Shown piece by piece: positions 26,775-45,409 of a stretch of DNA of 64,000 nucleotides. The stretch's first letter is position 1; every line of letters begins with the position of its first letter. The notes below the pieces were generated by a model, which did no database searches, was not told the origin of the DNA, and saw only the letters and a list, made by a program, of their open reading frames with translations. This DNA comes from an uncultured Myxococcales bacterium. Lineage in GTDB: Bacteria; Myxococcota_A; Polyangia; Nannocystales; Nannocystaceae. The DNA is taken from positions 1-64,000 of the forward strand of contig CADEGN010000007.1 of NCBI GenBank assembly GCA_902826865.1, read 5' to 3'. A program made the translations under genes and the position numbers.

Positions 26775-26940
26775 GGCACACACCCTACCGCGGGCGCCGA
26801 GCGGCGGCACGTCCGCGGGCGTGTCGACCTCGGCCCCGATGCCATTGGGGCCCGCCGCCGCGCCGATTCGGGCGAGGGCGTCGCGGTTTCGCGGCGGAAC
26901 TTCGGGATTCGCGACGGCCTGATAGTCTGACGTGCCTCGA

Positions 26941-29900
26941 ATGCGCACGTGGAGCCTCTCGGACCTGGCCCTCGCTCGCCCGGTCACCATTGGGATGACG
27001 CTGCTTGCAGTGGTGCTGCTCGGCGTCATCGGGCTTGCTCGGATGCCGCTGTCGTTCCTCCCGCGCGATCAGGCCACACGGGTGTCGGTCCGCGTGGAGA
27101 TCACGCGGACGTCCCCGGAGGTCCTTGAGCGCGACGTCATCCGCCCGCTCGAGGAGGCGGTGGCCGGCCTGCGTGGTCTTCAGCGCAGTCAGATCGGTTC
27201 GGGCTCGTGGGGCGTGCGCATGAATCTCGAGTTCGAGCCGGGCAGCGACCTCGACGCCCGCAAGCTCGAGCTCCGCGATCGCGTCGACCGCGTGCGTGGT
27301 GAGCTGCCTGAATTCGTACAAAACATCGAGATCAGCAGCCAGTCCAACGCCGACGCACCGGTGATGGAGCTGCGCATCGCCAGCGGAACCGATCTGTCCG
27401 GCGACTACTATGTGATCGAGCAACATATCGTGCGTGCCATCGAGCGAATCGATGGGGTCGCGCGCGTCGAACTCGAGGGGGTATCGCCGCACGAGCTCGA
27501 GGTCGCGCTCGACGTCGAGGAGGCACGGCGCACCGGGGTGTCGCTCGCCGAGATCGGTGGCGTCGTCCGCGATGCTCGGCAGGGACGCTCGATGGGATCG
27601 CTGGGGGCCAGCGATCGTCAGGCAGATGTGCGATCGCCTGCGGCCTCGGCGACGCCCGAGCGATTCGCTACGCTGCCGGTGCGTCGCGGGGCCGACGTCG
27701 CCACCGCTCCTCCAAGCACGCCGCTGCCCACGGGCATGTTGCCGGATGCAGCGGATCCGACGGGCGCGACCGCGCCGGCGGCGGTTTTGCCCGGCGCTGA
27801 GGAGCCATCACCGTCGGTGACCGGTGGCGGCGCAGCGCTGGTCGTCGACACAACGGCGGCAGCCGCCGCGAGGTTCGCGACCGTTGGCGAAGTCGCAGAG
27901 GTCTCGGCCCACCCCGAGGAGCAGCGCAGCGGTAGCCGACTAAACGGCCGCCCGGCGATCCAAGTCGAGGTCTTTGCCGCGTCGGGCGCCAGCGTCGTCG
28001 ACGTAACTCGGCGGGTTCGCGAGACGCTCGAGCGCCTCCGCGTCGATCCTGCCCTGGATGGGATCGAAGTGCTGGTCGTGCAGGATCAGGGCGCGATCAT
28101 CCTCAAGACGCTGGCCGACCTCCGCGACAGCGGCATCTACGGGGGCATCCTGGCCGCGTTGGTGTTGTTCGCGTTTCTCCACCGCTTCGGGATCACCCTG
28201 GCCGCGTCGCTTTCGGTTCCGCTCTCGGTGCTGGCCGCTGGCGCAGTGCTGTTTGTTCGCGGCGACGAGCTCAACTGCGTCGTCTTGCTCGGCTTGGTCC
28301 TTGGCGTTGGCATGCTCATCGACAACGCGGTCGTGATTGTCGAGGCGATTGCCTCACACGCGCGCGCCGGCAAATCGCCCCTTCGAGCCGCCCGCGACGG
28401 CGCGCGGGAGGTAGGTTTCGCAACCGTTGCCTCGACGGCTTCTACCGTTATCGTCTTCCTCCCGCTCATCGCCAACAACCCGATCGATCAGATGAGCGCC
28501 TATCTCAGGCCGCTCGGGATCACCTTGGCCATCAGTCTGATCGCCAGCCTGTTCGTCAGCCAGCTTGCAGTTCCACTCATATTGGGTCGCGTGCGCTGGT
28601 TGACCCGACCGCCGGCTCGCCACGTCGTACTCGAGCGCGCGACTCGGGCTTACGGATGGATCATCCGCCGAACGCTGCGCCGCCCGAAACTGGTGCTGCT
28701 GCTGGGTCTGGCGCTGGCCGCTAGCGCTGCTTGGCCGGCGCTGCGGCTCGAGTTCAAGCTCGGCCGCGCTGACGTCAAGCCGGATCACTTGCCGATCCGC
28801 TTGGAGTTCACGGGCAGCCGCAACTTCGAACGCATCCAATCGTACATCGTCGTATTGGATCAAGCCCTGCTCGATCGCAAGGATGAACTCGGGATCGCGT
28901 CCGTGTCTTGCAACTACGGCGATATGTGGAGCAGCTGCCGGGTCTACCCGCGCGATGCGTTCCAGAGCGAACACGAGTTGCTTGAGTTTGAAGATCGGGT
29001 GCGTGCCGTCTTGCCGGAGCAAGTCGGCCTGCGCTATCGGGTCAATGAGAGCGAGTACGACTGGCGAGAGAATAACGATCGACGCGTGGTCGACTTCGCG
29101 ATCAAGGGCGACAACATTGCCACGCTCAAGGACGTCGCCGATCGCGTGGCTGAGCACCTCGCCGCCAACCTACAGCGCGGCAGTTCCGCCGATCCGGAGG
29201 CCGGCGGCTACGACGTCATTATCACGCCCTTCACGGACGGTGCGCGCGAGCTCCACGTCCGCCTTGACGGCGATCGCTTGCATCGTTTTGGGCTCACCCC
29301 GGACGAGGTCGCCAATCGCGTCGCCCTGGCGTTCCAAGGCATGCCGCTCGGGCGGCTTCGCGGGGAGCGCGGTGAGCTGCGCCTGCGGTTGTCCACTGGC
29401 GGCGATGGCGAAACTCGCCCAAGTTTGGACGACGTTAGCGAGCTGAAGATCCCGCTTCCTGGCGGAGGCGACACCACCATCGGCGCAGTCGCCTCGACTT
29501 CGATCGAGCGGCGCCCGTGGTGGATCCAACGCGTCGATCGCCAAACCGAGGTGCGCCTGCAGGTGCGGTTCTTCACCGCCGATCAGAAAGCGAATTTCGA
29601 CACCATCTCGACGGCGATGGAGAGCTTCACGTTCCCATCAGGCTATTCGTGGGGGCGCGGAACGCAGTGGCGGATGCAGGGGCAGGCGAACGCCGACATG
29701 CTCATCAACCTTGGCCTGTGCCTGCTCCTGGTTTACGGGGTCATGGCCTCGCTGTTCGAGAGCTTTGGCCAGCCCGCCGGTATCCTCGTGACTTGCTTGC
29801 TCGGCTCGTTCGGCGCGCCATGGGCGCTGTGGGCGACCGGTACCACCGTCGACGCGACCGCCATCGTTGGCATGTTCATCCTCATTGGCGTGGTCGTGAA

Positions 29901-30237
29901 CAACGGGATCATGTTGGTCGATCGCGCGACTCAATTGCGCGGACAGGGTAGCGAGCGCCGGGCTGCCCTCGATCAGGCCGGGCGAGACCGGCTCCGTCCG
30001 ATTCTGATGACCGTGACGACGACTATCCTCGGGCTGGTGCCCATGCTCATCCACCACCCCACGCTCGCCGGGGTGTACTACCACGCGATCGCCATCGTGG
30101 TCGCCGGTGGCCTCGTCACCAGCACGGTGATCACGCTGGTGTTCTTGCCGGCGGCGTACTGCGTGATCGAAGATGCTTCGGACGCGATCCGGTCCAGCTG
30201 GCGAAAGTTCGGCGGCGGGCGGCGACGATCGGCATGA
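26941..30237 (+). CDS. RND family efflux permease with a Pro/Ala-rich docking-domain insert
   Basis: About 1098 residues; a GTG nine bases upstream (26932) is an alternative start. The N-terminal TM (RPVTIGMTLLAVVLLGVIGL), the porter repeats and the two six-helix bundles are those of HAE1/AcrB-type pumps. In TM4 the relay reads GVGMLIDNAVVIVEAI, with one Asp and an Asn in place of the second Asp. TM10 reads GVVVNNGIMLVDRATQ, with no relay lysine, a form shared by SwrC-like RND proteins. Residues 258-314 (about 27703-27873) are an unusual linker rich in Pro, Ala and Thr, inserted just before RFATVGEVAEV. No adaptor gene lies next to it. Its stop overlaps the start of the S4 gene by four bases. 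Confidence 0.88.
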   Translation: MRTWSLSDLALARPVTIGMTLLAVVLLGVIGLARMPLSFLPRDQATRVSVRVEITRTSPEVLERDVIRPLEEAVAGLRGLQRSQIGSGSWGVRMNLEFEPGSDLDARKLELRDRVDRVRGELPEFVQNIEISSQSNADAPVMELRIASGTDLSGDYYVIEQHIVRAIERIDGVARVELEGVSPHELEVALDVEEARRTGVSLAEIGGVVRDARQGRSMGSLGASDRQADVRSPAASATPERFATLPVRRGADVATAPPSTPLPTGMLPDAADPTGATAPAAVLPGAEEPSPSVTGGGAALVVDTTAAAAARFATVGEVAEVSAHPEEQRSGSRLNGRPAIQVEVFAASGASVVDVTRRVRETLERLRVDPALDGIEVLVVQDQGAIILKTLADLRDSGIYGGILAALVLFAFLHRFGITLAASLSVPLSVLAAGAVLFVRGDELNCVVLLGLVLGVGMLIDNAVVIVEAIASHARAGKSPLRAARDGAREVGFATVASTASTVIVFLPLIANNPIDQMSAYLRPLGITLAISLIASLFVSQLAVPLILGRVRWLTRPPARHVVLERATRAYGWIIRRTLRRPKLVLLLGLALAASAAWPALRLEFKLGRADVKPDHLPIRLEFTGSRNFERIQSYIVVLDQALLDRKDELGIASVSCNYGDMWSSCRVYPRDAFQSEHELLEFEDRVRAVLPEQVGLRYRVNESEYDWRENNDRRVVDFAIKGDNIATLKDVADRVAEHLAANLQRGSSADPEAGGYDVIITPFTDGARELHVRLDGDRLHRFGLTPDEVANRVALAFQGMPLGRLRGERGELRLRLSTGGDGETRPSLDDVSELKIPLPGGGDTTIGAVASTSIERRPWWIQRVDRQTEVRLQVRFFTADQKANFDTISTAMESFTFPSGYSWGRGTQWRMQGQANADMLINLGLCLLLVYGVMASLFESFGQPAGILVTCLLGSFGAPWALWATGTTVDATAIVGMFILIGVVVNNGIMLVDRATQLRGQGSERRAALDQAGRDRLRPILMTVTTTILGLVPMLIHHPTLAGVYYHAIAIVVAGGLVTSTVITLVFLPAAYCVIEDASDAIRSSWRKFGGGRRRSA

Positions 30238-30635
30238 GCGGGCACGACGGCCAGCTGCCCGGCGTAGGCAAGCAGGAGCCGGCGGCCGTCCGCCTCGACA
30301 AGTGGCTGTGGGCTGCCCGCTGCTACAAGACGCGTGCGCTTGCCGCGGAGGCGTGCGATGCGGGCCACGTAAAGATGAACGGAGGAACCGTCAAGCCAGC
30401 CAAGCCCGTGCGGGTCGGCGACCGCATCGAGGCGCGCACCGACGGCGGACTTCGGGTCTTCGAGGTCGTTGCGCTGGCGGAGCGGCGCGGACCCGCCGAA
30501 GTCGCGCGTTCGCTGTATGTCGACCACTCGCCACCGCCGCCGCCTCGCGAAATTGCGGTCGTCACGCGCGAGCGTGGGGCGGGACGCCCGAGCAAGCGCG
30601 AGCAGCGACTGCTTCAGAAGCTGCGCGGCTACTGA
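30234..30635 (+). CDS. hslR: S4-domain RNA-binding protein, Hsp15-like
   Basis: 133 residues. The S4 domain is clear: VRLDKWLWAARCYKTRALAA, GHVKMNGGTVKPAKPVRVGD and a following beta-strand (RVFEVVALAERRGPAEVA). A basic tail ends GRPSKREQRLLQKLRGY. Hsp15 binds free 50S ribosomal subunits that carry a stalled nascent chain, and this protein has the usual length and layout. Its ATG overlaps the stop of the RND permease (ATGA), so it is translationally coupled to that gene, which is an odd functional pairing but a firm operon link. Confidence 0.85.
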   Translation: MSGHDGQLPGVGKQEPAAVRLDKWLWAARCYKTRALAAEACDAGHVKMNGGTVKPAKPVRVGDRIEARTDGGLRVFEVVALAERRGPAEVARSLYVDHSPPPPPREIAVVTRERGAGRPSKREQRLLQKLRGY

Positions 30636-30799
30636 CCGACCCCGTGTGGGCGCGCCACTGGTGTGGGTGGCTGTGCCGACGACGTGCCCGCGAATCTGCG
30701 CTTGCGCGAATTCGCTGCATCACGGATCGCGCTATCCCGAGTAGCGCGCATACCCTATCGTTTCGACGTGCCGCGCGTCGGGGGCGCGAAGCCTCCGAC

Positions 30800-32800
30800 A
30801 TGTGGCGGCTAGGCAACGGGCCCGCCGCCTGGCAGTCTGAAGTTGCCGGCGCAAAGTCGCCCGCGCGCGTCATGGATCGCAGTCCTGCGGCACCACAGAG
30901 CGACGACGGGCATCGGACCATCATCCACGCCGGTCCCGCCCCGGTCCCCAAGCCCCAACCACCGGTCCAATCGCGGGACCGCGCGGAAACCGGTCCGGCA
31001 CTCGTCGCCGCGGACGCCTTCGGCCTCGGCGACATCTTGCCGGGCACGCGCTACCGGCTGATCCGCACGCTGGGTGATGGGGGCATGGGCGCGGTGTTCG
31101 AAGCGGAACACGTGGAGATCGAGCGTCGCGTCGCCCTTAAGATCCTCCACCCGGAGTTCACGCGCTCGCCGGCGATCGTCGAGCAGTTTCGCCGCGAGGC
31201 GCGTGCGGCGAGCCGGGTGGGATCGGAGATGATCGCCGAGGTATTCGACTTCGGCGAGCTTCCCGACGCCCGACGGTGGTTCACGATGGAGTTGGTTTCG
31301 GGTCCGACGCTTCGTGAGGAACTGAGCGATGGACCGATCCCTGTGGCGCGCGCAATCGGTATCCTGCGCCAGATATGCAAAGGGCTCGCACTCGCGCACA
31401 AGTCGGGCGTGGTCCACCGCGACGTAAAGCCTGACAACATCGTGCTCACGCGACGCCGCGGACGGATGGACGCGGTCAAGGTTCTCGACTTCGGCATTGC
31501 GGTGATGCTCGGCGAAGAGCTGCGACCGGTCTCGGCCGGCACGCCGCACTACATCGCGCCAGAGCTCGTCGCTGGCGCGACGTTCGATGGACGCGCCGAC
31601 ATCTATGGCGTTGGCTGCACCGCGTACGAGATGTTGGTCGGACGGCCGCCGTTTGGCGTGCTCGATGCAGACGTCGACGAAGTGCTGGGGCGCCATCTTG
31701 CCGACGTGGCGGAGCCTCCGAGCCGCGTACGGACGGACGCAGGGATCACACCGGCGCTTGATCGCGTGATCCTGAAATGCCTGGCCAAGTTGCCGTCGAA
31801 TCGCTATCGAAACATGGGGGAGCTCGAAGTGGCACTGTGCGCAGCTCAGGTTGAGAGCGGGCTGCACACGGCATGGGACGACCTTCCGCTGCCCGACGAG
31901 GTTGATCCGGAGTTGCGCGACCGCCTGCTTCGAGACATGCCGGATCTGCACGCGTTACCACGCGCGCCGCGACGTTGGGCGATGCCGGCTTTGGCGGTCC
32001 TTTGCCTCGGCGCTGGGATCGGTGCGACCTTCGCGTGGCAGCGCTACACCATGTCGGCAGCGGCTGCATCGACCGAAGTTGTGGCGGCGGCCGAGGCTCC
32101 CGCACAACTCGATGCCATCTCCGAATCGGCAACCGCGGCTGAGTCGCACGTCGCCGCCGCGATCGATGCCACAGGTCCGCGCAGCCCGCACGAGGTGCCC
32201 AGCCAACGCTTGGTCGAGGTGCGCCGGCGTCTACAAGGCGGACCTTCACCGACGAGCGAGGCAGTCGCGACTCCTGCGTTCGCCGAGCCACAGCCGCCGC
32301 CGGCGGTCGTCGCGATGCAACACTCGGGGGAACAGGCGGGTGCCGCTGAGTTAGTCGCCAGTGCGCACAGGCTCATGGCGGCCGGCGACAAGGACGACGC
32401 CAGGGATATGTTCGCGCGCGCGTTGACGTACGATCCGCACAGTTCCGCGGCCTTACGAGGCATGTATGCGGTCAGCTATGAACGCGGGGCGTACGCCGAA
32501 GCACTCGGTTTTGCCAAACGCCTGGTCGCGGACGCCCCGGCAGTGGCAGACAATCACCTCAAGGCTGGGGATGTGAGGATGAAGCTGCGGCAGTACGCCG
32601 ACGCGCGCAGCTCCTACGAGCGCGCGGCAAGCCTCGGAGCGGCCGCTGCCGCGGGCCGTCTTGCGCAGTTGGACGACGTGTCCCCGGCGCCGGCAGCACT
32701 GACAAAGGCGGAACACGCAGACGCAGCCGAACCCGCGACTGCGGATGAGGTCGAGGCCAAGCCGGAGGCCGGAGAGCCCGAAGACGAGCCGGGCGAGTGA
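30800..32800 (+). CDS. Transmembrane Ser/Thr protein kinase with C-terminal TPR-like repeats
   Basis: About 666 residues from the ATG at 30800; an ATG at 30872 (MDRSPAAPQSDDGHR) is equally possible. The kinase domain begins at YRLIRTLGDGGMGAVFEAEH and has VALKILH, HRDVKPDNIVL, DFGIAV and GTPHYIAPEL, so all catalytic residues are present and it should be active. After it comes one membrane helix (WAMPALAVLCLGAGIGATFA), an Ala-rich stretch, and a TPR-like region (DDARDMFARALTYDPHSSAA, YEAL-type repeats) that would lie outside the cytoplasm. It ends with a Glu/Ala/Pro-rich tail. It is a sensor-type kinase of the kind abundant in myxobacteria; signal and targets are unknown. Confidence 0.88.
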   Translation: MWRLGNGPAAWQSEVAGAKSPARVMDRSPAAPQSDDGHRTIIHAGPAPVPKPQPPVQSRDRAETGPALVAADAFGLGDILPGTRYRLIRTLGDGGMGAVFEAEHVEIERRVALKILHPEFTRSPAIVEQFRREARAASRVGSEMIAEVFDFGELPDARRWFTMELVSGPTLREELSDGPIPVARAIGILRQICKGLALAHKSGVVHRDVKPDNIVLTRRRGRMDAVKVLDFGIAVMLGEELRPVSAGTPHYIAPELVAGATFDGRADIYGVGCTAYEMLVGRPPFGVLDADVDEVLGRHLADVAEPPSRVRTDAGITPALDRVILKCLAKLPSNRYRNMGELEVALCAAQVESGLHTAWDDLPLPDEVDPELRDRLLRDMPDLHALPRAPRRWAMPALAVLCLGAGIGATFAWQRYTMSAAAASTEVVAAAEAPAQLDAISESATAAESHVAAAIDATGPRSPHEVPSQRLVEVRRRLQGGPSPTSEAVATPAFAEPQPPPAVVAMQHSGEQAGAAELVASAHRLMAAGDKDDARDMFARALTYDPHSSAALRGMYAVSYERGAYAEALGFAKRLVADAPAVADNHLKAGDVRMKLRQYADARSSYERAASLGAAAAAGRLAQLDDVSPAPAALTKAEHADAAEPATADEVEAKPEAGEPEDEPGE

Positions 32801-32830
32801 GGCCTCGCCACGGCTCTTTGCCGCGTTCTC

Positions 32831-33205
32831 GTGGCGAGTCGCTTCGGCGTCGAGCGGCGTGCCGAGGGTACGACCTCCGCCGTGTTCGCCGCCGAAATCT
32901 GTCCGTTCACGGACTGGGACAAGGACGTGTGCCACAACGGCACCTGGCACTCCGTCAGCGACTACAGCGATCCGTGGTGGTCGCACTGGAGTCGCAGCCG
33001 CACGCTGGCATGCGAGCACAATGGTCGCGCTCGACACTACTATCGCTTCGGCGGAATCTGGTACGAGACGATCGACGGATCGATCCCGCCGAACAACGTC
33101 TACGTGTTCACCAAGGAGAGCGGCAGCCTTCTCCCCCGTGCGATCAACCACTGCCGCACGTCCGACGGCTTCGTGCGTGGCAGTTCGCACTTCCAGGAGT
33201 TATGA
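32831..33205 (+). CDS. Hypothetical protein, probably 5'-truncated
   Basis: A frame of 124 codons from a GTG at 32831. The first 20 residues look like random coding, while AEICPFTDWDKDVCHNGTWH and YYRFGGIWYETIDGSIPPN clearly belong to a folded, Trp/Tyr/Cys-rich protein. It ends SDGFVRGSSHFQEL. It has no signal peptide although the four cysteines suggest an exported, disulphide-bonded domain, so the real 5' end has probably been lost. I do not recognise the family. It follows the kinase gene by 30 bases on the same strand. Confidence 0.4.
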   Translation: MASRFGVERRAEGTTSAVFAAEICPFTDWDKDVCHNGTWHSVSDYSDPWWSHWSRSRTLACEHNGRARHYYRFGGIWYETIDGSIPPNNVYVFTKESGSLLPRAINHCRTSDGFVRGSSHFQEL

Positions 33206-33211
33206 AAGGAC

Positions 33212-33436
33212 CTGCCCGAAGGGCATGCACGGGAATCGATCCGGAACTTGGTGCGTGGACCGGAGGTCGGCCTGGTTCCGCTGGCGGGTCCGGCGAACAG
33301 GAGCGGATTCCCTGGGCCATCGTCCGGCAGGATTCCTCCTACGGGTTCCTAATACACGCCCTTCGTGGGCAGGCTTCCTTTTCGGATTCTCAATACATGC
33401 CCTTCTCAATACATGCCCTTCGGGCAGGCTTCCTTG
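33212..33436. repeat. Cluster of short REP-like hairpin repeats
   Basis: The perfect inverted repeat TGCCCGAAGGGCA occurs at 33213-33225 on the plus strand and again as TGCCCTTCGGGCA near 33415. A variant with GCCCTTCGTGGGC lies near 33360. Around the last two, a longer unit with aatacatgcccttc and gggcaggcttcctt is repeated in the same orientation, with a partial extra copy of CAATACATGCCCTTC between them. On the minus strand these units fall at and just after the end of the lipoprotein relic at 33405. They could be terminator-like or REP-type elements. Confidence 0.45.
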
Positions 33437-33599
33437 CCGCTCGATCCGCTCGTGTCAGCATGGCCGGTCGTGGTCGTCGTGCCTTGGGTCCCCGATTCCC
33501 CAGCCACAGGCGAGTCGGCGGTGCACCGTTGCACGCGGTGATCGACACCAGCGCCGCAAGCCCGAGCGCGCGGCAACGACGCCGGCGGTGAGACCGAAT
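33405..33599 (-). pseudogene. Frameshifted short lipoprotein relic
   Basis: On the minus strand a GTG near 33592 begins a signal peptide (CRALGLAALVSITACNG) with a lipobox. The linker expected after it, TADSPVAGESGTQGTTTTTG followed by HADTSGSSGKEACPKGMY, lies in another frame, so the gene is broken by a frameshift right after the lipobox cysteine. The frame ends at a TGA within the hairpin repeats. It looks like the front end of one of the Thr/Gly-linker lipoproteins of this genome whose body has been deleted. The remaining bases from 33206 to 33691 hold only the hairpin repeats. Confidence 0.4.
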
Positions 33600-33691
33600 C
33601 CTCACCCTTAGCCAGCAAGTATGGCATGAGCTGCGCGGGCTCAGAAATCGCGCGGGCTTGATCCCCGGCGAGCCTCTGATACCGTGAAACG

Positions 33692-34711
33692 ATGCGCGGT
33701 GGCGTTGTGGTGGGGATAGGGATCCTGGCCGCGTGTCGCGAGCCGCCGCCTCAATGCCTGGAACGCGAGTACTTCCGGGATGCGCCCGATCTCTATCAGG
33801 TGGCGCGGTTACCCGACGGCTACGTGCTGGACGCTCCTGGTCGCTTGGTCGGCTACGATAACGACGATCTGGAGCGCTTCCAACTCGGCATCTCCGCGCT
33901 TGAATTCCAGGGCACGCGCGACGGAACGCTGGTGACGCTCGCCATCGATGGTGAAGCGCTCGTGCTTGCGCGCTGGGCTGCGGATGGAGCCGCGTTGGGC
34001 GAGCTCGCACGTGCAGTGGTGGGCGCGGATGTCCTTAATATTTCGCAGCGCGTGATCTCCGACGATGGTGTGGCGCTTGTCTCGGGTTACACCGACGAAG
34101 CCGGATACTGGTGGACGCGTCTCGAGCACGGACGAGACGCCGTGGTGCATCGTTCGGATACGACGGCACGAACGGGGATCGCCGCGGTTCGCGGCGGGGA
34201 TGCGTACGTCCTGGAGTCGACGTGGCAGGACGAGCTTGCTATCTCCGAGACCGCGACGCTGACGCGGCTCGGACCCGACGGGGCTCCGCGCTGGGCGACG
34301 AGGATCTTCGGCGACGCCCCCGACACGCCGTCGCGGGAGGTAATCGTCGAGCTATCGGCAGCCGGCGATGCCGCCTACGTCGTCACCTTCGAGCATGCAC
34401 AGTCCGAGTTCGTGATCCGTCGGTATGACGCCGACGGCGCGTTGGTGTGGCGACGCGCGGAGCGCCGTCCGATTGATCGACCCCCCGGTCAGCCGGTCGC
34501 CAGGGACGACGGCACGCTGCTATGGGTCGACGACCTCGACGCCTCGATCCGGGTCCGTGCGATCGACAATGCCGGTGATGTGCTCGGAGAGTGCACCGCA
34601 CCGGCGGACGGCAACCGCTTGAGCGACGTCGAACTCGACGGCGACGAGCTCTTCGTCGTCACGATCGATCGAATCACGCGGCTGCGCGTCGGCCCACCGC
34701 TCGGACGCTAG
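33692..34711 (+). CDS. Secreted lipoprotein, beta-propeller-like
   Basis: 339 residues. A short signal peptide ends in a lipobox (VVVGIGILAAC). The rest is made of repeated beta-strand blocks of the type LTRLGPDGAPRWATRIFGD, FVIRRYDADGALVWRR and VRAIDNAGDVLGEC, similar to PQQ/Kelch-like propeller blades in secreted myxobacterial proteins. No catalytic site is seen. The TAG stop lies inside the palindrome that forms the outer tip of the left 499-bp inverted arm, so the arm begins exactly at the end of this gene. Confidence 0.75.
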   Translation: MRGGVVVGIGILAACREPPPQCLEREYFRDAPDLYQVARLPDGYVLDAPGRLVGYDNDDLERFQLGISALEFQGTRDGTLVTLAIDGEALVLARWAADGAALGELARAVVGADVLNISQRVISDDGVALVSGYTDEAGYWWTRLEHGRDAVVHRSDTTARTGIAAVRGGDAYVLESTWQDELAISETATLTRLGPDGAPRWATRIFGDAPDTPSREVIVELSAAGDAAYVVTFEHAQSEFVIRRYDADGALVWRRAERRPIDRPPGQPVARDDGTLLWVDDLDASIRVRAIDNAGDVLGECTAPADGNRLSDVELDGDELFVVTIDRITRLRVGPPLGR

Positions 34712-35201
34712 CGTCCGCGCTGGCGCCGCCGACTGGATCGAACGCGCCAAGCGGCCGGGACTCTCAGTCTCGAACGCTTCGGATGCTTGCCGATCGCCTG
34801 GCCCGCGGTGTGGCGAGCCGCGCTGCCGCGTTCACCGAGGCGTGCCGGCGTGCAACGTTCTTTGGCGGCTTCGCGAGTCGGCATCGTCGCCCACCCTCGA
34901 ACGACTTCACGTCGTGGTGACCACCGTGCGGTTAAGCATTTCGATCTGCGAACGGGGCGTGCCGAGCCGCGGGCCTGTGGCGCACGTTCGGCTTGTCGGG
35001 CACGAGCATCAGCCTCGTCGCACGGGTGAGCGCCCACTGGGAGTTGCGCCTCCGGACGTTCGAACCTCCGGTTGATCTGCGGCAGGACAGCGTTCCCCAC
35101 CGGCGAGCGACACTGCGCCCGAGGACGATGCGAGCCGTGCTCTGCACACCACCCAGCCCGGGCCGTTCGGCGTTGGGAATCCTCCCGCCACGGTTTACCC
35201 A
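34703..35201. repeat. Left arm of a 499-bp inverted repeat
   Basis: These 499 bases are the reverse complement of 36410-36908 with only about five mismatches. The outer tip is the palindrome GGACGCTAGCGTCC (34703-34716), which contains the stop of the gene before it. At the inner edge CCCAACCACGCCGGC(G/T)GGGTGAA occurs at 35198-35220 and in the same direction at 36395-36417, so about 20 bases at the junction are flipped relative to the arms. The arm contains an imperfect palindrome around TTCGAA. Translation in six frames shows only Arg-rich frames and no transposase or recombinase that I recognise. Confidence 0.9.
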
Positions 35202-35233
35202 ACCACGCCGGCGGGGTGAAACGCAGCGCGCCG

Positions 35234-35259
35234 AAACGCGCTGGGCCCGCAGCGCGTTT
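35234..35259. repeat. Perfect 10-bp hairpin upstream of the enclosed lipoprotein gene
   Basis: AAACGCGCTG at 35234-35243 pairs with CAGCGCGTTT at 35250-35259 around the loop GGCCCG. It lies 14 bases inside the inner junction of the left arm and 57 bases before the ATG of the gene at 35316. There is no T-run, so it is not a typical terminator. It may act in the 5' leader of that gene or be an operator. Confidence 0.5.
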
Positions 35260-35315
35260 CCGCGCTCATCGCGATCGCGGTGAAGCTCGCGGGGTCGACC
35301 CGCATCAATGCCGTC

Positions 35316-36416
35316 ATGCGCCGTTTCGCCCTCCTGACGGTCTCCACGAGCGTGGCCTGCTCCACCCCCACCCTCAACGTTGGCGGAACCGATGACTCGG
35401 GCGACTCGGGTGCGGAAACCACAACGCAGGGCGAGGCGCCCGCAAGCACCGGCGTAGGTGCCGACAGCACCACCGCTGCGAATGCCGCGAGCTCGGGAGC
35501 GTCCACCGAAGAAGGCGGCACGCCGTTGCTCGACGTGGGCTCCGCGGAAACCGGCGCCATACCGACGGACGACTGCCCGAGTGAAACCAAGCGCGTGATC
35601 GTGCTGTTCGTGAACGACTTCCTCTCGTTCGAGAGCGCCCCCGAACTTCACTCCTTCGATCCGGAGACTGGAACCTTCTCTCTGATCGGTCCACTTGAAT
35701 GCACCTGGAACGAGCCGCATGGCGCTTACGAGGTCGTTGAAGGTCTGATCGTCGGTCGCCAAGGGGATGCGATGACGTTCAGGTATGGCGAGGAGGTTAA
35801 GCTCTTCGCGTTCGACCTCGGCGACCTCAACAACTGCTCGCTCGTCAGCTTCGCGCACCCCATCGGCCCTGCGGGACCTGAAACTGCTGGGTACCCCACC
35901 TCGTTCGCGTACTCCCTCACCGACCCCGACATGCCCGAGCAGATGTTTATCGGCAACGATGTCTCGCAGAATCTCAACGGTGAGGCCTTCCCGGGCTCGC
36001 TCTGGGGAGGCCTCGTTGCCGACGAGGCGCTGACCACAGAGGTCATCGGACACACTCCGTGGACCCAAACGTACGTCGTGGGGACCGGCGACGGACGTCT
36101 ATTCGCGGCGGGCAGCAACAACGATCAGTCACCTCCGACCGATTTCGCTGAGCTCGACCCCGAAACCGGGACGGTGCTATCGACCGTGCTCACCTGGCCC
36201 GAATTCATGTACCCCGCGTTCTATGGCGGCGATCTATTGATGTTCGAGATCGGCCCGAACGAGCAACAGACCGTTTGGCGCGTCGACCTCGACGATGACA
36301 ATGGCGACGGCGAGAACGAGGTCGTGTCGATCGCCGAGGACGCGGCGTTCCCGGTCGGGATGATCCCGGTCGGCGTTTCCTCGCCCACCTGCATCCCAAC
36401 CACGCCGGCTGGGTGA
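35316..36416 (+). CDS. Secreted lipoprotein enclosed by the inverted repeat
   Basis: 366 residues from the ATG at 35316. The signal peptide ends in a lipobox (ALLTVSTSVAC), followed by a long Ser/Thr/Ala/Gly linker. The globular part starts at about residue 90 (KRVIVLFVNDFLSFES) and has propeller-like strands such as LHSFDPETGTFSLIGPLEC, LFAFDLGDLNNCSLVSF and WRVDLDDDNGDGEN, the last a possible calcium-binding Asp loop. It ends TCIPTTPAG with the TGA inside the inner edge of the right arm. It is the only gene between the arms. Its promoter is presumably in the 114 bases between the left arm and its start. Confidence 0.8.
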   Translation: MRRFALLTVSTSVACSTPTLNVGGTDDSGDSGAETTTQGEAPASTGVGADSTTAANAASSGASTEEGGTPLLDVGSAETGAIPTDDCPSETKRVIVLFVNDFLSFESAPELHSFDPETGTFSLIGPLECTWNEPHGAYEVVEGLIVGRQGDAMTFRYGEEVKLFAFDLGDLNNCSLVSFAHPIGPAGPETAGYPTSFAYSLTDPDMPEQMFIGNDVSQNLNGEAFPGSLWGGLVADEALTTEVIGHTPWTQTYVVGTGDGRLFAAGSNNDQSPPTDFAELDPETGTVLSTVLTWPEFMYPAFYGGDLLMFEIGPNEQQTVWRVDLDDDNGDGENEVVSIAEDAAFPVGMIPVGVSSPTCIPTTPAG

Positions 36417-36908
36417 ACCGTGGCGGGAGGATTCCCAACGCCGAACGGCCCGGGCTGGTTGGTGTGCAGAGCACGGCTCGCATCGTCCTCGGGCGCAGTG
36501 TCGCCCGCCGGTGAGGAACGCTGTCCTGCCGCAGATCAACCGGAGGTTCGAACGTCCGGAGGCGCAACTCCCAGTGGGCGCTCACCCGTGCGACGAGGCT
36601 GATGCTCGTGCCCGACAAGCCGAACGTGCGCCACAGGCCCGCGGCTCGGCACGCCCCGTTCGCAGATCGAAATGCTTAACCGCACGGTGGTCACCACGAC
36701 GTGAAGTCGTTCGAGGGTGGGCGACGATGCCGACTCGCGAAGCCGCCAAAGAACGTTGCACGCCGGCACGCCTCGGTGAACGCGGCAGCGCGGCTCGCCA
36801 CACCGCGGGCCAGGCGATCGGCAAGCATCCGAAGCGTTCGAGACTGAGAGTCCCGGCCGCTTGGCGCGTTCGATCCAGTCGGCGGCGCCAGCGGGGACGC
36901 TAGCGTCC
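36410..36908. repeat. Right arm of a 499-bp inverted repeat
   Basis: This is the reverse complement of 34703-35201, about 99% identical. Its outer tip is the longer palindrome GGGGACGCTAGCGTCCCC (36893-36910). The inner edge overlaps the last codons and stop of the enclosed lipoprotein gene. The sequence outside, 36911-36989, does not match the left outer flank, and I see no convincing target-site duplication. A 130-codon frame at 36511-36903 and its mirror in the left arm are Arg-rich and do not look like a functional protein. Confidence 0.9.
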
Positions 36909-36989
36909 CCTCATGTCCGTGCCTTCGCGAGGTCATCTCGATCCGGCGCACCGCAAGGTGCCCACCGCGAATGTCGAACTCGCCCGCCT

Positions 36990-38399
36990 TCAGCCCTCGG
37001 GCTTGGGTTCGGTGTACTCGGCAAGATCACCGCCGCCGAGTTCGTAGATCACGAAGCCAGAGGTGACCCAGAAATGGTTGAGCGCGCCGAAGCCCATGCC
37101 CTCGACGTCTTGACCTTCTGATTCGCTGTACTGGAACAGATTCTCCTGGACCCAGCCGAGATCAGGGTCGAGCCGATACTGGCCGATGAAGTCGCTGGTC
37201 ATATCCGACACATATACGTAGGGTGTGCCCGTGTTCGGGTCTGTCACGACCTCGAGGCCGTCCATGTGCCACCCCGCCAAGTTGGGGTAGTGGAACGCGA
37301 TCCCCCACGCATCGGTTTCAGCGTCGTACTGAAACACCCGCCGGGCGGCTTCATTCGCGGCGTACCAGACCTTGCCGACGCTGTCGTATCCGATGGTTGA
37401 GAAACCGCCCAATCCCTCGCTCGGATCGGCGAATTCCCCGTTTCCTCGGGTCCAGCTCGGCGCCGTGGTGATCACCGTACCTGCGCCCGCGCCGAACACA
37501 TACTCCGTGATTTCGGCACCACCCACGTACATGCGGTCTGCGATCGGGTAGATCTCGGATTGGATAAAGCCCGCGGCATCGTCGATCTTAATATTCGGGA
37601 TCGTCTCGATCTTCTCGAGTGTGCGCTCTTCCACGGGACCGGTCGCGTCGGGGTTGTCGGGGTGCTGGTTCGGTTCGAGCTCGCCGTCATTGTCGGAGTC
37701 GAGCAGCGTGATCTTGTAGACGTGAACGTTTGAGCTCAAGTACTCGGTGACGTAGACCAGATCACCGTAGCTGCCCGCATCGTGATAGACGGTGGGATCT
37801 CCCCCGATCTCGAAGTTCGCGTACAAGTAGTAGGTTCCCGTGGGATCGTTCGTGCCGATCGGCTCGAGCACTTCGCAGGTGCCAAACTCCTGGTTGCAAC
37901 CCTCTTCGAGCGTTGGATCGCACAGATCCCAGTCAACCCAGTGCGGGGTATCACCCGAGGTGTCGCACGACATGACTCGCGGACCCGAGCAGCGGAACTG
38001 CCCCGCCAGACACGGGACGCATCCCGTCATATCGACGCAAAGCCCGGGCAAGCAGGACTCCTGCGCGACGACGTTGCCGTCACCGTCACACTCAATCGCG
38101 GTGTTGTTGGCGCAGATGACACCAGCCGGCGCACCCTCGCAGGTCTCGCCGGGGGGAGTCGCCCCTGCGACGTCGTACTTCACGCCTTCGCCCGTGCTCC
38201 CATCGCTTGCCGTGGTGGCGGCCGGAGCTGCGTCGGTGCCGCCCGAGCCTGCCGACGACCCGCCACCTGGCCCGACGGAGTCACCGGTTGTCAGCTCGGG
38301 GGTCGCTGGACCCGAGGAATCGACCTGCGTGCTCACCGGGCCACCGCATGCGGAGGGGGACAAACACGGCAACAGCAGGGCCAGGCGTGACGGGCTCAT
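36990..38399 (-). CDS. Secreted lipoprotein with Cys-rich module and propeller-like domain
   Basis: 469 residues from the ATG at 38399, where the signal peptide begins (RLALLLPCLSPSACGG). A Gly/Ser/Ala linker of about 60 residues follows, then a Cys-rich module (PPGETCEGAPAGVICANNTA, CVDMTGCVPCLAGQFRCSG). The rest is strand-rich with propeller-type blocks such as LVYVTEYLSSNVHVYKITLL, a DSDNDGELEPNQ Asp loop (possible calcium site), and KVWYAANEAARRVFQYDAET. It is one of several lipoproteins of this layout in the window (35316, 59330). No enzyme motif is present. Its 3' end lies 81 bases from the right inverted-repeat arm. Confidence 0.8.
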   Translation of the reverse strand: MSPSRLALLLPCLSPSACGGPVSTQVDSSGPATPELTTGDSVGPGGGSSAGSGGTDAAPAATTASDGSTGEGVKYDVAGATPPGETCEGAPAGVICANNTAIECDGDGNVVAQESCLPGLCVDMTGCVPCLAGQFRCSGPRVMSCDTSGDTPHWVDWDLCDPTLEEGCNQEFGTCEVLEPIGTNDPTGTYYLYANFEIGGDPTVYHDAGSYGDLVYVTEYLSSNVHVYKITLLDSDNDGELEPNQHPDNPDATGPVEERTLEKIETIPNIKIDDAAGFIQSEIYPIADRMYVGGAEITEYVFGAGAGTVITTAPSWTRGNGEFADPSEGLGGFSTIGYDSVGKVWYAANEAARRVFQYDAETDAWGIAFHYPNLAGWHMDGLEVVTDPNTGTPYVYVSDMTSDFIGQYRLDPDLGWVQENLFQYSESEGQDVEGMGFGALNHFWVTSGFVIYELGGGDLAEYTEPKPEG

Positions 38400-38534
38400 G
38401 ACGGCCTCCGCCCGCGACCGCGGGCAGTGCATGCCGGCGTGCGGTACCCCGCTTCGACGGGGCGCGGGCTCCGGATCTGCCTGTTTATTCGCAACGGGCA
38501 GCCGGGCTTCACTGCCGGTCGCGTTAACGAGCAG

Positions 38535-38626
38535 GTCCTCAGATCGGCCGCGGTTCGCAAGGCTGGATCCGCTCGGCCGGGCGCGCGTGGGCGGTGCGGA
38601 GATCGCGGCCGCGGAAGACAGCGGCG
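38535..38626 (+). repeat. Dispersed repeat, copy A
   Basis: Shares blocks with 39192-39261 in the same orientation: TCCTCAGA, CGGTTCGCAAG(G/C)CTGG and, after a spacer of different length, CCGCGGAAGACAGCGGCG. It lies in the 326-base gap (38400-38725) between a divergent pair of genes; nothing else recognisable is in that gap. It may be a mobile fragment or conserved regulatory DNA. Confidence 0.45.
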
Positions 38627-38725
38627 GAGGCACGACGCAGCGGCGTCCGAGCACACCAACGTGTCCGCCGTTCCGCCTGGACGATCCGTATCCGCGTGGG
38701 ATAAGCCAGTCTTCGAGGCGGCACG

Positions 38726-39160
38726 ATGGGGGACGAGCACGAGGCCAATGGCGGAGATCCGTTCCGGCGCGCCGTCGGGTTCTCGGGCTACGTCCGAACC
38801 AGTCGACTCGCACTCGCCGCGGCGCACGCCGCCGACGTCGCACTCGGGCTCGCGGTTTTCGTTCTCGTTGCGATCGTGGCCGACGCGCTGATCCTCGCGA
38901 CGATCCTGGCTGTCGCCACCGGCCTCGCCCTCGCGCTCCCGGACATTGCCAGGATCAGACTGCGCCGGCCAGACCTCGCTGCCGCTCCGAACCTCGTCGA
39001 GCACGTCGCCGAGGCGCACCGCATGGCGCTCATGCTCGGTGGCATGATACCCGTTGGCGGGCTGTTGGTGCTCACCCTCCATCTTGCCGCGTGGTTCTGG
39101 GCTGGCGAAACCGGCGGCGCGCTGATGGATTGGTTGCTAGGTGATCTGCTCAACCACTGA
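38726..39160 (+). CDS. Small integral membrane protein
   Basis: 144 residues. After about 30 polar residues there are four hydrophobic stretches in two pairs: DVALGLAVFVLVAIVADALI, ILATILAVATGLALALPD, MALMLGGMIPVGGLLVLTLH and FWAGETGGALMDWLLGDLL. It is an inner membrane protein with four likely helices and no motif I recognise. The ATG at 38726 fits the first clear coding signal. It lies between two copies of a dispersed repeat, which flank it at 191 and 31 bases. Confidence 0.6.
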   Translation: MGDEHEANGGDPFRRAVGFSGYVRTSRLALAAAHAADVALGLAVFVLVAIVADALILATILAVATGLALALPDIARIRLRRPDLAAAPNLVEHVAEAHRMALMLGGMIPVGGLLVLTLHLAAWFWAGETGGALMDWLLGDLLNH

Positions 39161-39191
39161 CGGCCACACACGATCGACGCCTGAGCCTCTG

Positions 39192-39261
39192 CTCCTCAGA
39201 CTGGCAACGGTTCGCAAGCCTGGGCCCGACCTCGAGGTCGCGCCCGCGGAAGACAGCGGCG
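39192..39261 (+). repeat. Dispersed repeat, copy B
   Basis: Second copy of the element at 38535-38626, same orientation, sharing TCCTCAGA, CGGTTCGCAAGCCTGG and CCCGCGGAAGACAGCGGCG but with a shorter middle. It lies directly after the small membrane protein gene. Confidence 0.45.
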
Positions 39262-39328
39262 CGGCCGGGTCTCGTAGCACCGACGAGTGGCAGCCAGCGA
39301 GAAGAAAGTCCTCGCGGCCGAGGGCGCG

Positions 39329-39652
39329 CTAGCGAGACCTCAGGTCGTAGCCAAGCTGGTGGATCGCCCAGAAGCTGAAGACGAGCCCGGCGATGCCGAC
39401 GAGCAGCGCGAGCAGCATCGTCACCAGTCGCAGACGGTTGCCGAACAGGCTCTCGCCCATCCCGAACCCGGTCACGATCCAACCGACGAGCAACGCCGTG
39501 CCGGCGACCATGGTGTTGCTCGCGCCAACCGCCGCCGAGATCGCGACGATCCCGAGAACGACGGCCTCGATGGCAAGCCCCGCGACTGTCGTAAGGAGGC
39601 CGTGTCGGCGGGCGGCGGCTTGCGCGGATGCGCCGGTGTCAGGGCGGACCAT
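39329..39652 (-). CDS. Small membrane protein with three helices
   Basis: 107 residues from the ATG at 39652 (MVRPDTGASAQAAARRHGLL); a GTG one codon earlier is possible. Three hydrophobic stretches are visible: VAGLAIEAVVLGIVAISAAV, MVAGTALLVGWIVTGFGMG and VTMLLALLVGIAGLVFSFWA. The C-terminus is short and basic. The family is not recognised. The frame is open far upstream, but that part overlaps other sequence and looks random. It lies downstream of the amidohydrolase gene on the same strand with a 172-base gap. Confidence 0.6.
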   Translation of the reverse strand: MVRPDTGASAQAAARRHGLLTTVAGLAIEAVVLGIVAISAAVGASNTMVAGTALLVGWIVTGFGMGESLFGNRLRLVTMLLALLVGIAGLVFSFWAIHQLGYDLRSR

Positions 39653-39824
39653 CACGGTACCTGACGGGGTCGCAGACACGAGGTTGCACGCGGGCGGTCG
39701 ATCCTCGAACGCCCGCACGTCGTGGAACTCCTCCTGGCCGCCACGGTGCACGGGTACTCCGCGTGGTCGGCGACCTCGAGCTCGGCGTCGATCCCGCACG
39801 ACGCACCGGTGCGCAGACCAACGA

Positions 39825-41672
39825 TCACTCGATGCGTACGTCGTCGAGCTCGAGTGTGAAGGCGCGGGGCTCGCCCACCGCTGCGAACAGCACGCCGACG
39901 AGCGCCCAGGTGTCGACATCAACGAATCGATCGAGTGGGATTTCGATGCGACGCCAGTTCTTGCCGACCTCAAGCGCGACGCGGGCGGGCATCGGTCCCG
40001 ACATCAACATCACCTGATAGCGGCCCGGGTCGCCGCGCACCCATGCGAGCAGCTTGGTCTTACGCGAGAGATTCGCCGGTGCCAGCGGTTGCGCGCCGGG
40101 CATAAACATGGCGCCCGACCATGCGATGGCTCCTGCCGCCTTGGTGAGCTCGCCGCGGATCCGCAGCGCGTGTTTGCTCTTCGCGGCGCCGCCCTTGGTG
40201 ACGCTCAAAACTGCGGTCGAGCTTCCGCCAGCGATCGCATCGGTCGAGGCCACCCAGCCGCTGCCGTAGGCGCTAACGCTGCTGCCACTTTCGAAATCGG
40301 ACACGCGGCCCAACTCGCTGCCGGCCGGCGCTGGTGTGCTGCGCAGACGCTCGATCTCCGCGTAGGCCTGTTGCACACGCTCGCGTGTGCGCTCGCGCGG
40401 TACCAGCTCGCCGTCTTTGTAAACCGCGACGATGTCGCGCGTGGCGAGGATCTCGGCCGTCGGATCGCCGGCAACGAGAATAAGATCGGCGCGTGCACCG
40501 ACGCGGATGCGCCCGCGATCGTCGAGGCCAAGGCGCGACGCCGGTTTGGCGGTCGCGGCCGACAGCGCGGCGCTCGGCGTGAGTCCAGCGTCGACGAGCA
40601 GCGAAAGCTCGTCGTGCATGCTGATGCCGTGCGCGGTGCCGGGGTTAGGCGCGTCGGTGCTCGCGAGCAAATCGACCCCCGCGTCGTGCAACTGTTTCGC
40701 GGCGCGGGAAACCGCTGCGCATGACGGCACGTAGTCACCGAGATCGAAGCTCCTCGACAACGCGCGCGCGACCGCGGGCCCCAAGTACGGCGCCAAGTCG
40801 GGATCGGTAGCCAGCGCGGCCCCCCGGCCCGGCTGACACAGTCCGTACAGCACCGGCAACGTGTCGGTCACAAAGACCCCGTGTTTGTGCGCGCTCGCGA
40901 CCGTCGCAGCGTCGATCTCGCCTTCCAGTACCAGATGGGCGAGGCCATCAGCGCCGGCATCGATCGCGGTGCGCACCTCGTCGGCTGAGCCGACGTGGAC
41001 AACCGAGCGCAAGTGCTGCTGTTTCGCAGCCACGACGAGCGCGCGCAAGGTCGCCTCGTTCAGACGCGTGAAGCGGATCGGGCCCAAGCCGTCGTCGTAA
41101 ACGATCTTGAGATAGTCCGAGCCCTCCTTGACGCGGGCGGCAACGAAAGCGGCGGCATCCTGCGGGAGCTCGACGGTCGGCACGTTGCCGCCATACTCGG
41201 TGCCGTGTCCGCCCGCGGGCGTCGCCGCGAAGCCGGCACCCAGCAGGTCGGCGGCCAAGGGCTTTGCGCCCGGCTTGCGTTGCCGTCGCGTCGCTAAGAA
41301 CCCCGGATCACCCATCATGTCGAACTCACACGTGACGCCGTACACCACGGCCTGTTCGAGATCGGCGCTGCTGTGCGCGTGGGCGTGTGCGTCGATGAAT
41401 CCCGGCAGCAACGTCCGCCCAGTGCCGTCGATGAGCTCGGCCCCGGCCGGCGGCGCGGCGGTGGCGTCGATGGCGACGATACGGCCCGCGTGGATCCACA
41501 CGTTGGTGCGCGGCAACACTTGCTCGCCATCGAACACTCGCACGTCGTAAATCACGAGGCTCGCATCGGGCATCGCGACGCCGCCAATCGGCTGTCCAGT
41601 GCCGGGCATTTGCGGAGGCGCCGGTGTACAAGCGAGGACCAGCAGCGCGAGCGACGAGGCCGAACGATGCAT
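39825..41672 (-). CDS. Secreted amidohydrolase-family lipoprotein with CIA30-like C-terminal domain
   Basis: 615 residues. The signal peptide ends in a lipobox (LALLVLAC). The amidohydrolase TIM barrel starts with IDGTGRTLLPGFIDAHAHAH, whose HxH binds metal. It continues with DYLKIVYDDG (bridging Lys position), SVVHVGSADE (His) and LLASTDAPNPGTAHG (catalytic Asp), the imidazolonepropionase-like subgroup. From about residue 455 a beta-sandwich similar to CIA30/carbohydrate-binding domains follows (VSDFESGSSVSAYGSGW, then RYQVMLMSGPMPARVALEVG and FTLELDDVRIE). It is predicted to be a periplasmic or surface hydrolase of cyclic amides, peptides or esters; the substrate is unknown. Confidence 0.88.
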   Translation of the reverse strand: MHRSASSLALLVLACTPAPPQMPGTGQPIGGVAMPDASLVIYDVRVFDGEQVLPRTNVWIHAGRIVAIDATAAPPAGAELIDGTGRTLLPGFIDAHAHAHSSADLEQAVVYGVTCEFDMMGDPGFLATRRQRKPGAKPLAADLLGAGFAATPAGGHGTEYGGNVPTVELPQDAAAFVAARVKEGSDYLKIVYDDGLGPIRFTRLNEATLRALVVAAKQQHLRSVVHVGSADEVRTAIDAGADGLAHLVLEGEIDAATVASAHKHGVFVTDTLPVLYGLCQPGRGAALATDPDLAPYLGPAVARALSRSFDLGDYVPSCAAVSRAAKQLHDAGVDLLASTDAPNPGTAHGISMHDELSLLVDAGLTPSAALSAATAKPASRLGLDDRGRIRVGARADLILVAGDPTAEILATRDIVAVYKDGELVPRERTRERVQQAYAEIERLRSTPAPAGSELGRVSDFESGSSVSAYGSGWVASTDAIAGGSSTAVLSVTKGGAAKSKHALRIRGELTKAAGAIAWSGAMFMPGAQPLAPANLSRKTKLLAWVRGDPGRYQVMLMSGPMPARVALEVGKNWRRIEIPLDRFVDVDTWALVGVLFAAVGEPRAFTLELDDVRIE

Positions 41673-41826
41673 GGGTGAAGGCTACCGGCGAACGGTGCAC
41701 GTTGCATCCACGTGCGGCGCTGGCACGACGGCGCGCCGACCTGCGAACGGTGCACAATGGTGGACTCCAGAACTTGGAGGTGATGCGAGTCACGCCTCAA
41801 CGGAGGCAGAACGGGGCGCGGTCGGG

Positions 41827-44800
41827 CTATCGCATCTCGACCGCGCGCGCGTTGTCCGACGGTGTCCGATCGATGAGCAACGCCCGCGGATCGATCGCCG
41901 CGCGGACCGGAAGGTCAGGGCTGACAATCGTGATGGTGTGGCTACCGCCACCGAGCCGCTCCAGCCGCAGGGCGCTGGGGACTTCCGCGGAGCCGTCGGG
42001 CCCCTCGACAAACACGCCGACCTCGACAAGGTCGTCCATCGGAACCTCGGACTCGGTGCCGTCGTCGCCGGCGCGGTACTTGTGGGTCTCGACCTTGAGC
42101 TCGACTTCCCACTGGCCGTCATCGCGCTGACGAGCGGTCGCGACATGGGCGCGGTTGTCGTAGAGGGTGATGGTCTCGAAGAGGTCCTCGATGAGGTAGC
42201 GCCGATCGGCCGGCACCACCGCTGCGAGTCGCTCGACCAGGCCGCGGGCAGTCGGGTAGGGCGGTCCGCTGAAGCCGACAGCCGCGAGGTAGTCCGCGAG
42301 CACGCGATTGACCTCGGCCTCACCGACGTACTCGCGCAGCGCGTACATCACGAGGCTACCCTTATTGTAGTGAATGTGCGGCTGGTTCTCGACCCGCACC
42401 AGCGGCAGCTCGCGATGGGCCTCGCGGCCACGCCCGGCCAGGTAGCGGTCGAGTTCGAACGCGAGGAACTTGCGCATGTGCTCGCGTCCGTACTCCTTCT
42501 CCATGACCATCAGGGCCGAGTACTGGGCCAGGGTCTCCGACAGCACGGTCGAACCCTGGACGTCGGCGCCGATGACCTGGTGGGCCCACCACTGGTGCGC
42601 GACCTCGTGGGCGGTCACATAGAACACGTAGTCGATGTCGTCGGGATCGCGGAGGTCGGCGATAAAACCGATCGACTCCGAGTACGGAATCGTGTTCGGG
42701 AACGACTGGGCGAAGCGCGCGTAGCCGGGGAACTCAACGATCCGGACCTGACGGTGCTGATAGGGGCTGAAGTTGGCGGTGAAGTAGTCCAGCGATCGTT
42801 TGGTCGCCTCGATCATCCGCGCGACGTTCGCGTCGTGGGTGGAGTGATGGTAGACCTCGATCGCGACGTCTTGCCACGTGTCGCGCTCGACGTGCCACTT
42901 CGCGGACAAGAACGCGTAAAAATCGAGAATCGGCGTGTCCATCACATAGCGGAAAAAGCGGCGATCACCCTCGGTCCATTCGCGCTCGAGGTAGCCCGGC
43001 GCCAAGGCGATCTGATCGAGATCGGTGGATACCGTCGCGGCGAACTCGATCCAGTCGGCCTCGCGCGAGATGTACGAGTTGGCGGTCGCGGCGACGTCGT
43101 CGAGATCGGCCATGCGTACGCGTTCGGGCAGGCCACGCTTTCGCCGTTCGTTAGGGTCGTCGAGCTCGGCGTTACGGTCGTAGCCGATGCGCGGGACGAA
43201 GTCCGGGCTGTGGAGGAACGAACCGTTGTAGACCAACGCGGTGCTCGAGCCGTGCTCTACGAAGCCCGGCTCGGCGAACCCCAGATCGAAGCGGAGAGCG
43301 AGTTGGGCGCCCGGCGCGAGTGCCTCCGCAAGGCGGTAGATCCGGTAGCCGATCTCGTCGTCTTGGTGCTCGATCGTCGCACCGGGAATCGCCAGGTCTC
43401 GGAGTTCGAGCCTGGATGATAGCGTGACGTGCAGCTGGTCGATCGGTTCGCTCGTGCGGTTCTGCAGGGTCAGCTCACCGCGCACATCGGCCCGGCGCTC
43501 GGTCGGGAACAGATCGACCGATACGTCGGCCGCGGTCACCCGCGGCTGAGCGAGACCGAAGTACTTGCTGTAGCGAAGTTCGTATTCGACCCGTTGGCGC
43601 TCGGCTTCGTCGCTGGGCACGAACCGGTTGCGAATATCGGTGTTGTAGAAGATGTAGCCGCCGGTGGCTGCAAACCCCGCCGCAAGGGCGACGAGCGCCG
43701 CGGCGATCCGTCCACGCATTCGGCCCCGGGCGGCGCGCAGACGCAGGCGTAGCCGCGCGTCCGTGCCCCGCGGCCACATCAGGGTCGCGATGATGAGCAG
43801 CACGATCGCGGCGAGGGTCCAATACAGTCGGTACCAGAACAGCGCGGTTACGAAGTGACCGTAGCCGTTCATCTCCGAGTAGGGCGTGTCGGGCGAGGCC
43901 GCGAAGCGATACAGGCCCCGCTCGAGGTCGACCAGGCTCATCACCGAGACGATGACGAAGTAGCCGGCCATCAGCAGGAAGCCGACGTACTTGTGGTTCG
44001 CCAGTCCCTGCAGCACGATCGCGAGGGCGGCGATCAGCATCCACCGCGAGCCCTGGAGCACGAATACGCCCTTGGCGTAGAGCACTGGCTCGATCGCCAC
44101 GCCGCCGATGAACAACTGCACGCCGATCGAGACCATGACGCCGACAGCGAGGATCCCGAAGACAGCCACCCACAGGGCCACGAGCTTCGCGACGACTCGG
44201 ACCCAGGTCGCGACCGGCAGCGCGTCGTAGACCTCGCCGAGTCCGAGCCGTCGTTCCTTCCATGCCAGCTCGCCGGCGTAGAACACGATCACGATGAGCA
44301 CGAACAGCGATAGGCTACCGTCGAGGATATCGATGAGCAGGCCGGTCACCGGGTAGACCGGTGTGCCGAACATCTCGGCGATGCTGCCCCAGATCCCACC
44401 GAAGGCGTTGAGCGCGGCGAACAGTGCGATGACGAAGTAGGCGGTGCTGCGGAAGACGCCCGAGGTCTCGACCGACAACTGGTGACGCAGCTGAGCGATC
44501 GTAACCGCCCGCCCGCGGGCCGCGGCCACCCGGGGCATGGGTCCGTCGACCGCCACCGCGGGCTCATCGTCACGGGTGGCGCGACGGCCCGACTCGTTCG
44601 GTGCTGCGAGCCGGAACCGCGCGACCGTCAGCCCCAGTGCGCCCACGGCGACAACCGACCAGACCACCCGATTGGTCACGAGCAGGGAGCCGAGCTGGGG
44701 CATCGCGGAGTTGCGCTCCGCGACCGTCCAGTAGCGCGTGTCGACTGCGATCGCCGTGAGCCCGAACGGATCGGCGACGGCCGCGAGTACGTCGTTGTCG

Positions 44801-45396: not shown

Positions 45397-45409
45397 CGTC
45401 GGTGCTCCA

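Follow-up and report, generated by a model that had tools for sequence, protein, structure and literature searches.

The stretch of DNA analysed here, 64,000 nucleotides in length and referred to as the window, contains a lipoprotein gene held between the arms of a long inverted repeat, the whole forming a unit of 2.2 kb located between two convergent genes (Table 1). When this unit is excised in silico, the two genes remain as a tidy convergent pair with a single hairpin between them. Neighbouring genes tested against Pfam (26932–45504) comprise an RND pump, an S4-domain protein, a kinase, lipoproteins, an amidohydrolase, an M1 peptidase, and unknowns, with no site-specific recombinase among them. 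Three tandem homologs of the downstream lipoprotein gene occur in one same-genus genome (G002:C172, L226). For the lipoprotein gene of the unit, the start is best set at ATG 35316, because GTG 35280 is out of frame in a paralog elsewhere in the genome. The original prediction described one complete lipoprotein gene between the arms; the gene is indeed present, but it is not wholly between them, as its last codons and TGA stop (36414–36416) fall inside the right arm.

Table 1. Features of the inverted-repeat locus, with positions counted from the first base of the window.
Feature	Position	Strand	Remarks
Upstream gene, function unassigned	33692–34711	+	28 other genomes of the family gave no homolog (E ≤ 1e-10)
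Left outer palindrome	34702–34717	.	Perfect, 16 bp, CGGACGCTAGCGTCCG; includes the upstream gene's stop codon
Left arm	34703–35204	+	502 nt, 6 mismatches against the reverse complement of the right arm
Putative ISCR/IS91-like terminal fragment	34928–34982	+	Within the left arm; its sharp end is at 34928
31-bp direct repeat	35198–35228	+	27/31 match to the 3′ end of the lipoprotein gene (36395–36425); inner left junction
Upstream region of the lipoprotein gene	35228–35315	+	Common to the C89 paralog; inside the loop
Lipoprotein gene	35316–36416	+	Encodes 366 aa with lipobox SVAC; the right arm includes its stop codon
Right arm	36407–36908	-	Native 3′ flank of the lipoprotein gene in its inner 50 bp (36410–36459)
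Putative ISCR/IS91-like terminal fragment	36629–36683	-	Inside the right arm, same fragment
Right outer palindrome	36893–36910	.	Perfect, 18 bp, GGGGACGCTAGCGTCCCC; outer end of the right arm
Downstream lipoprotein gene	36990–38399	-	Convergent; genus-conserved, 48–58% identity

A repeat search of the window returned arms of 502 nt each (34703–35204 and 36407–36908), 99% complementary with six mismatches and spaced 1202 nt apart, within a few bases of the 499 bp and about five mismatches given originally. Chance cannot explain an inverted match so long and so near-identical, and the arms are confirmed as a real structure in the sequence. The mismatches (34717, 35097, 35106, 35152, 35196, and 35202) all lie ≤15 bp from the outer end or ≤108 bp from the inner end, and the longest mismatch-free run is 379 bp (P = 0.0014 under uniform placement). 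Such confinement to the arm ends is expected if conversion keeps the arm middle identical; the identical middle fits either inter-arm conversion or homogenisation by template switching, and with all mismatches near the ends the earlier suggestion of recent origin or ongoing gene conversion is a reasonable one. The arms look non-coding. Their GC content by codon position (0.69/0.74/0.65, compared to 0.62/0.51/0.79 in the lipoprotein gene) and the absence of any credible protein-family match for the ORFs within them argue against an arm as coding sequence, and an Rfam search with nothing above threshold (one chance match to a microRNA model) argues against a structured RNA. No transposase ORF was detected in the arms, in agreement with what had been noted before.

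The identical core also bears on the reading of a partial assembly artefact, with errors in resolving the arms or the direction of the loop. The sampled contigs contain N runs of 10 and 100, gaps of a style that suggests short-read scaffolding, and the 379-bp core, longer than a typical short read, is just the stretch that short-read assembly would collapse; the assembler may have chosen the direction of the loop and even made the core identical. The existence of both arms is nevertheless supported by six fixed differences, by junctions that differ at the inner and outer ends, and by a window free of Ns, and the probability of a partial artefact is low. Loop orientation in the assembly is not reliable, because of the core and the short-read-style gaps.

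Neither the 8.5-Mb draft genome itself (91% complete) nor 58 relatives contained a further full or long partial arm copy, and none was present in plasmid and phage records, which gave weak short matches at most. Besides the two arms, nearly all significant matches in the genome fall on arm positions 223–280. No arm was found in three same-genus genomes, where the best lipoprotein match (44–48% identical) came from one of the three, and neither the lipoprotein nor the ISCR-like core had a match in GTDB contigs. An inverted-repeat survey covered 1.70 Mb (20% of the genome) sampled from 628 contigs. No other spaced inverted repeat (at least 40 bp, separate arms <10 kb apart) exceeded about 84% identity, such that the arm pair is the sole long, near-identical, spaced inverted repeat in the 1.70 Mb sampled. 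The locus is ordinary in kind and unusual within this genome.

A paralog of the lipoprotein gene (C89:26656–27765, 86% identical) lacks both the arms and the outer palindrome. DNA homology to C89 (88%) begins at 35228, just on the loop side of the left arm, covers the gene without a break, and reaches 36459, thereby taking in the inner 50 bp of the right arm; in the left arm, those 50 bp are matched only in inverted orientation. Because the homology continues into the right arm, this arm starts as the native 3′ flank of the gene, and the left arm is therefore best read as a derived, inverted copy, a result in favour of the inverted duplication that had been one of the options proposed. The locus combines two inverted local copies, junctions at palindromes or microhomology, and one probably native plus one derived copy, the last being testable over the 50 of 502 bp that are comparable with C89. 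The homology ends at 36459, where a 168-bp MITE-like palindrome is inserted at CTAG in C89, and the contig ends soon after, for which reason the outer ~450 bp of the right arm is not provably native. Based on the substitutions between the two sequences (dN 0.077, dS 0.227, dN/dS about 0.34), the lipoprotein gene pair appears to be under constraint; its divergence is much greater than that of the arm pair (1.2%). Related lipoproteins of same-genus relatives are about 50% identical, too distant to show the state before duplication or to allow a comparison of gene orientation. In C28 (L150 and L151 joined), an 88% identical direct repeat of 1.2 kb (19440–20651 and 29066–30257) overlaps two weak lipoprotein paralogs, and duplication at similar divergence therefore recurs within this lipoprotein family in the genome.

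Both outer arm ends fall on perfect palindromes that have a 14-mer core in common, GGACGCTAGCGTCC, with no third occurrence in the genome. At the rate observed (138 perfect palindromes ≥16 bp in 1.68 Mb, or 0.08 per kb), the chance of such a palindrome within 8 bp of a given arm end is about 0.001. Through the outer-end mismatch at 34717, each of the two palindromes is matched to the base on its own outer side. The inverted copy ends with ACCCA at the inner left junction; next come, in this order, the 31-bp direct copy of the 3′ end of the gene (a match as good occurred in 0 of 300 shuffles) and the upstream region shared with C89. The 31-bp repeat is either microhomology or the remnant of a further or earlier tandem copy; the remnant is 87% identical compared to 99% for the arms, and the history may therefore include more than one step. 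The small spacer of the hairpin at the stop codon has opposite orientations relative to the two arms. The switch from inverted to direct copy at CCCA microhomology is the signature left by template switching.

With the arm ends placed on palindromes and microhomology, template switching is indicated, and a one-off local inverted duplication, probably generated by template switching at palindromes, with conversion or a recent age since, is the likely origin of the locus. A stretch of ~0.5 kb 3′ of the lipoprotein gene, from the region of the stop codon to the outer palindrome, would have been copied in inverted orientation onto the upstream side of the gene, in this direction and probably by template switching during replication, with the outer switch at the GGACGCTAGCGTCC palindrome and the inner switch at the CCCA...TGGG quasi-palindrome around the stop codon. 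The putative ISCR/IS91-like end, already in the stretch, would have been copied along. Afterwards, gene conversion between the arms, or simply a recent age, would account for the identity of the middle 379 bp and the differences remaining near the ends.

Tandem inversion duplications in Salmonella were reportedly described by Kugelberg et al. in 2010. Like these and the amplifications attributed to ODIRA in yeast (PMC4689423), both regarded as template-switch inverted duplications, the locus has an inverted local copy, junctions at short palindromes or inverted microhomology, and no mobile-element machinery. Classic tandem inversion duplications hold three copies in direct-inverted-direct order, whereas here two copies flank a unique gene and only these two are found in the window or genome; ODIRA requires a replication origin inside the amplicon (PMC4689423). 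Quasi-palindrome template switching (PMC8604942) offers parallels in the mismatch-free core of the arms, whose differences sit towards the ends, in a base change centred on a palindrome (34717), and in a stop-codon hairpin spacer that is opposite in the two arms, but it was described for short repeats with spacers of a few bases, in contrast to arms of 0.5 kb and a spacer of 1.2 kb. Template switching between inverted repeats has been reported to homogenise arms and invert spacers (PMC8604942).

The 14-bp repeat that flanks the unit is palindromic and can equally be read as a target duplication or as the outer end of the inverted arms. As a target duplication (GGACGCTAGCGTCC), it would belong to a foldback-type or MIC-like non-autonomous element, a 2.2-kb unit with terminal inverted repeats of about 490 bp and the lipoprotein as passenger, inserted at a palindromic intergenic site between convergent genes. 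The 14-mer is a perfect direct repeat absent elsewhere in the genome, removal of the unit leaves a tidy gene pair, and the lipoprotein gene has a paralog elsewhere, all of which would suit such an element. The chief objection comes from C89, where the paralog has neither arms nor palindrome and still matches the inner 50 bp of the right arm. In addition, the would-be terminal repeats mismatch at the very first base, a transposase and a second cargo are absent, and no second copy at another site, solo arm, or autonomous partner with these ends was found in the genome, its relatives, or plasmid and phage records; the outer arm ends matched no transposase element in the 91% complete genome. An insertion of this kind is considered unlikely. 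MICs and TIMEs (PMC4133298) similarly carry a passenger gene between inverted repeats without a transposase, but here there is no related autonomous element, other copy, or established target duplication, and the inner arm is the passenger's own flank. A CTAG target duplication, as in the MITE-like element of C89, was also considered and rejected; CTAG does occur in the outer palindromes, but the ends of the supposed element bear no relation to that MITE-like element. Among the three interpretations originally offered, inverted duplication is thus retained and the foldback-type mobile element is not: arm pairs with different cargo, which it had been proposed to search for, were absent from the genome and 58 relatives, no transposase ends matched, and the outer palindrome occurs at two places only. 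Still less credence is given to the compound version, a non-autonomous cassette with inverted arms of 0.5 kb that inserts into hairpins between convergent genes with a 14-bp palindromic target duplication, the arms letting the lipoprotein gene flip.

Each arm also contains a short dispersed repeat that the original prediction missed (34928–34982 and 36629–36683), a fragment of 43–55 bp about 225 bp inside the outer arm end. One end of this repeat is sharp (GCGGTTAAGC...) and the other variable, with longer genomic copies reaching about 344 bp. An ORF overlapping the copy in C217 aligns through its first 32 residues with positions 453–484 of the ISCR clade Ia transposase model (NCBIfam, 509 residues) at E = 1e-4, well short of the curated cut-off because nothing but this end is present. 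The fragment is interpreted on this basis as the terminus of an ISCR/IS91-like family of elements, a tentative name resting on this one weak match. The arms run about 225 bp past the sharp end, which excludes the fragment as mover of the arms and makes it a passenger. Unlike ISCR/IS91-like rolling-circle elements, which the terminal fragments recall, the arms extend far beyond the fragment both ways, neither start nor end at it, and carry the terminus only, with no Y2/HUH transposase gene that has the family end downstream. The fragment in each arm could be taken to mean that one 490-bp repeat, such as an ISCR-like solo end with flank, was inserted twice independently in opposite orientations. 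Outside the fragment, however, the arms match no other family member and no other site in the genome, and their ends coincide neither with the ISCR-like end nor with a target site common to arm and fragment, so that paired insertions are highly improbable.

The ISCR/IS91-like terminus occurs in at least about 25 places in the genome (C188, C345, C91, C217, C81, C152, C249, C311, and others), mostly as copies of 30–55 bp, some in tandem, and was not seen in the 58 relatives; the dispersed copies may be one-ended rolling-circle events that stopped early. Two direct copies of the repeat flank an ISAs1-family transposase (NCBIfam, E = 8e-116) in C345 (L032:1452–2669). The 168-bp palindromic MITE-like family, with TAG/CTAG at its ends, has full copies just downstream of the lipoprotein paralog in C89 (L067:5808–5975) and in C13 (L124 and L125 joined, 13131–13298), 97.6% identical to each other, and smaller parts in L166 and in L108+L109. 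Palindromes of similar size in L174 and L158 look like further families.

Long, near-identical, closely spaced inverted arms are good substrates for homologous recombination, as would be the arms of this locus (0.5 kb, 99% identity, 1.2 kb apart), and recombination between them could in principle flip the loop with its gene. Recombination between terminal inverted repeats is documented to flip bacterial IS elements (PMC3004938). A functional invertible cassette, in which such flips vary the expression of a surface protein, would agree further with the unusually homogeneous arm middle and with a gene under constraint (dN/dS about 0.34). Nonetheless, the conserved upstream region lies inside the loop and would be carried along in a flip, such that no expression switch is implied; no site-specific recombinase is found among the Pfam-tested neighbours, and no alternative coding segment or outside promoter is seen to switch. 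Invertible phase-variation loci likewise have inverted repeats flanking a surface-protein gene, but differ from this locus, whose arms are far longer than site-specific sites, with no neighbouring recombinase found and the upstream region in the loop. A functional cassette is quite unlikely, and any flip of the loop would count as a side effect, not as a known switch.

The locus, read as a local inverted duplication, offers a clear case from nature of a long inverted duplication with spaced copies, in the draft genome of a poorly sampled lineage, in which a paralog (C89) shows the probable native arm and palindromes mark the junctions. Such a duplication can mimic a mobile cassette when judged from one sequence alone, and, as a practical consequence, short-read assemblies are not trustworthy for gene orientation in loci of this kind.
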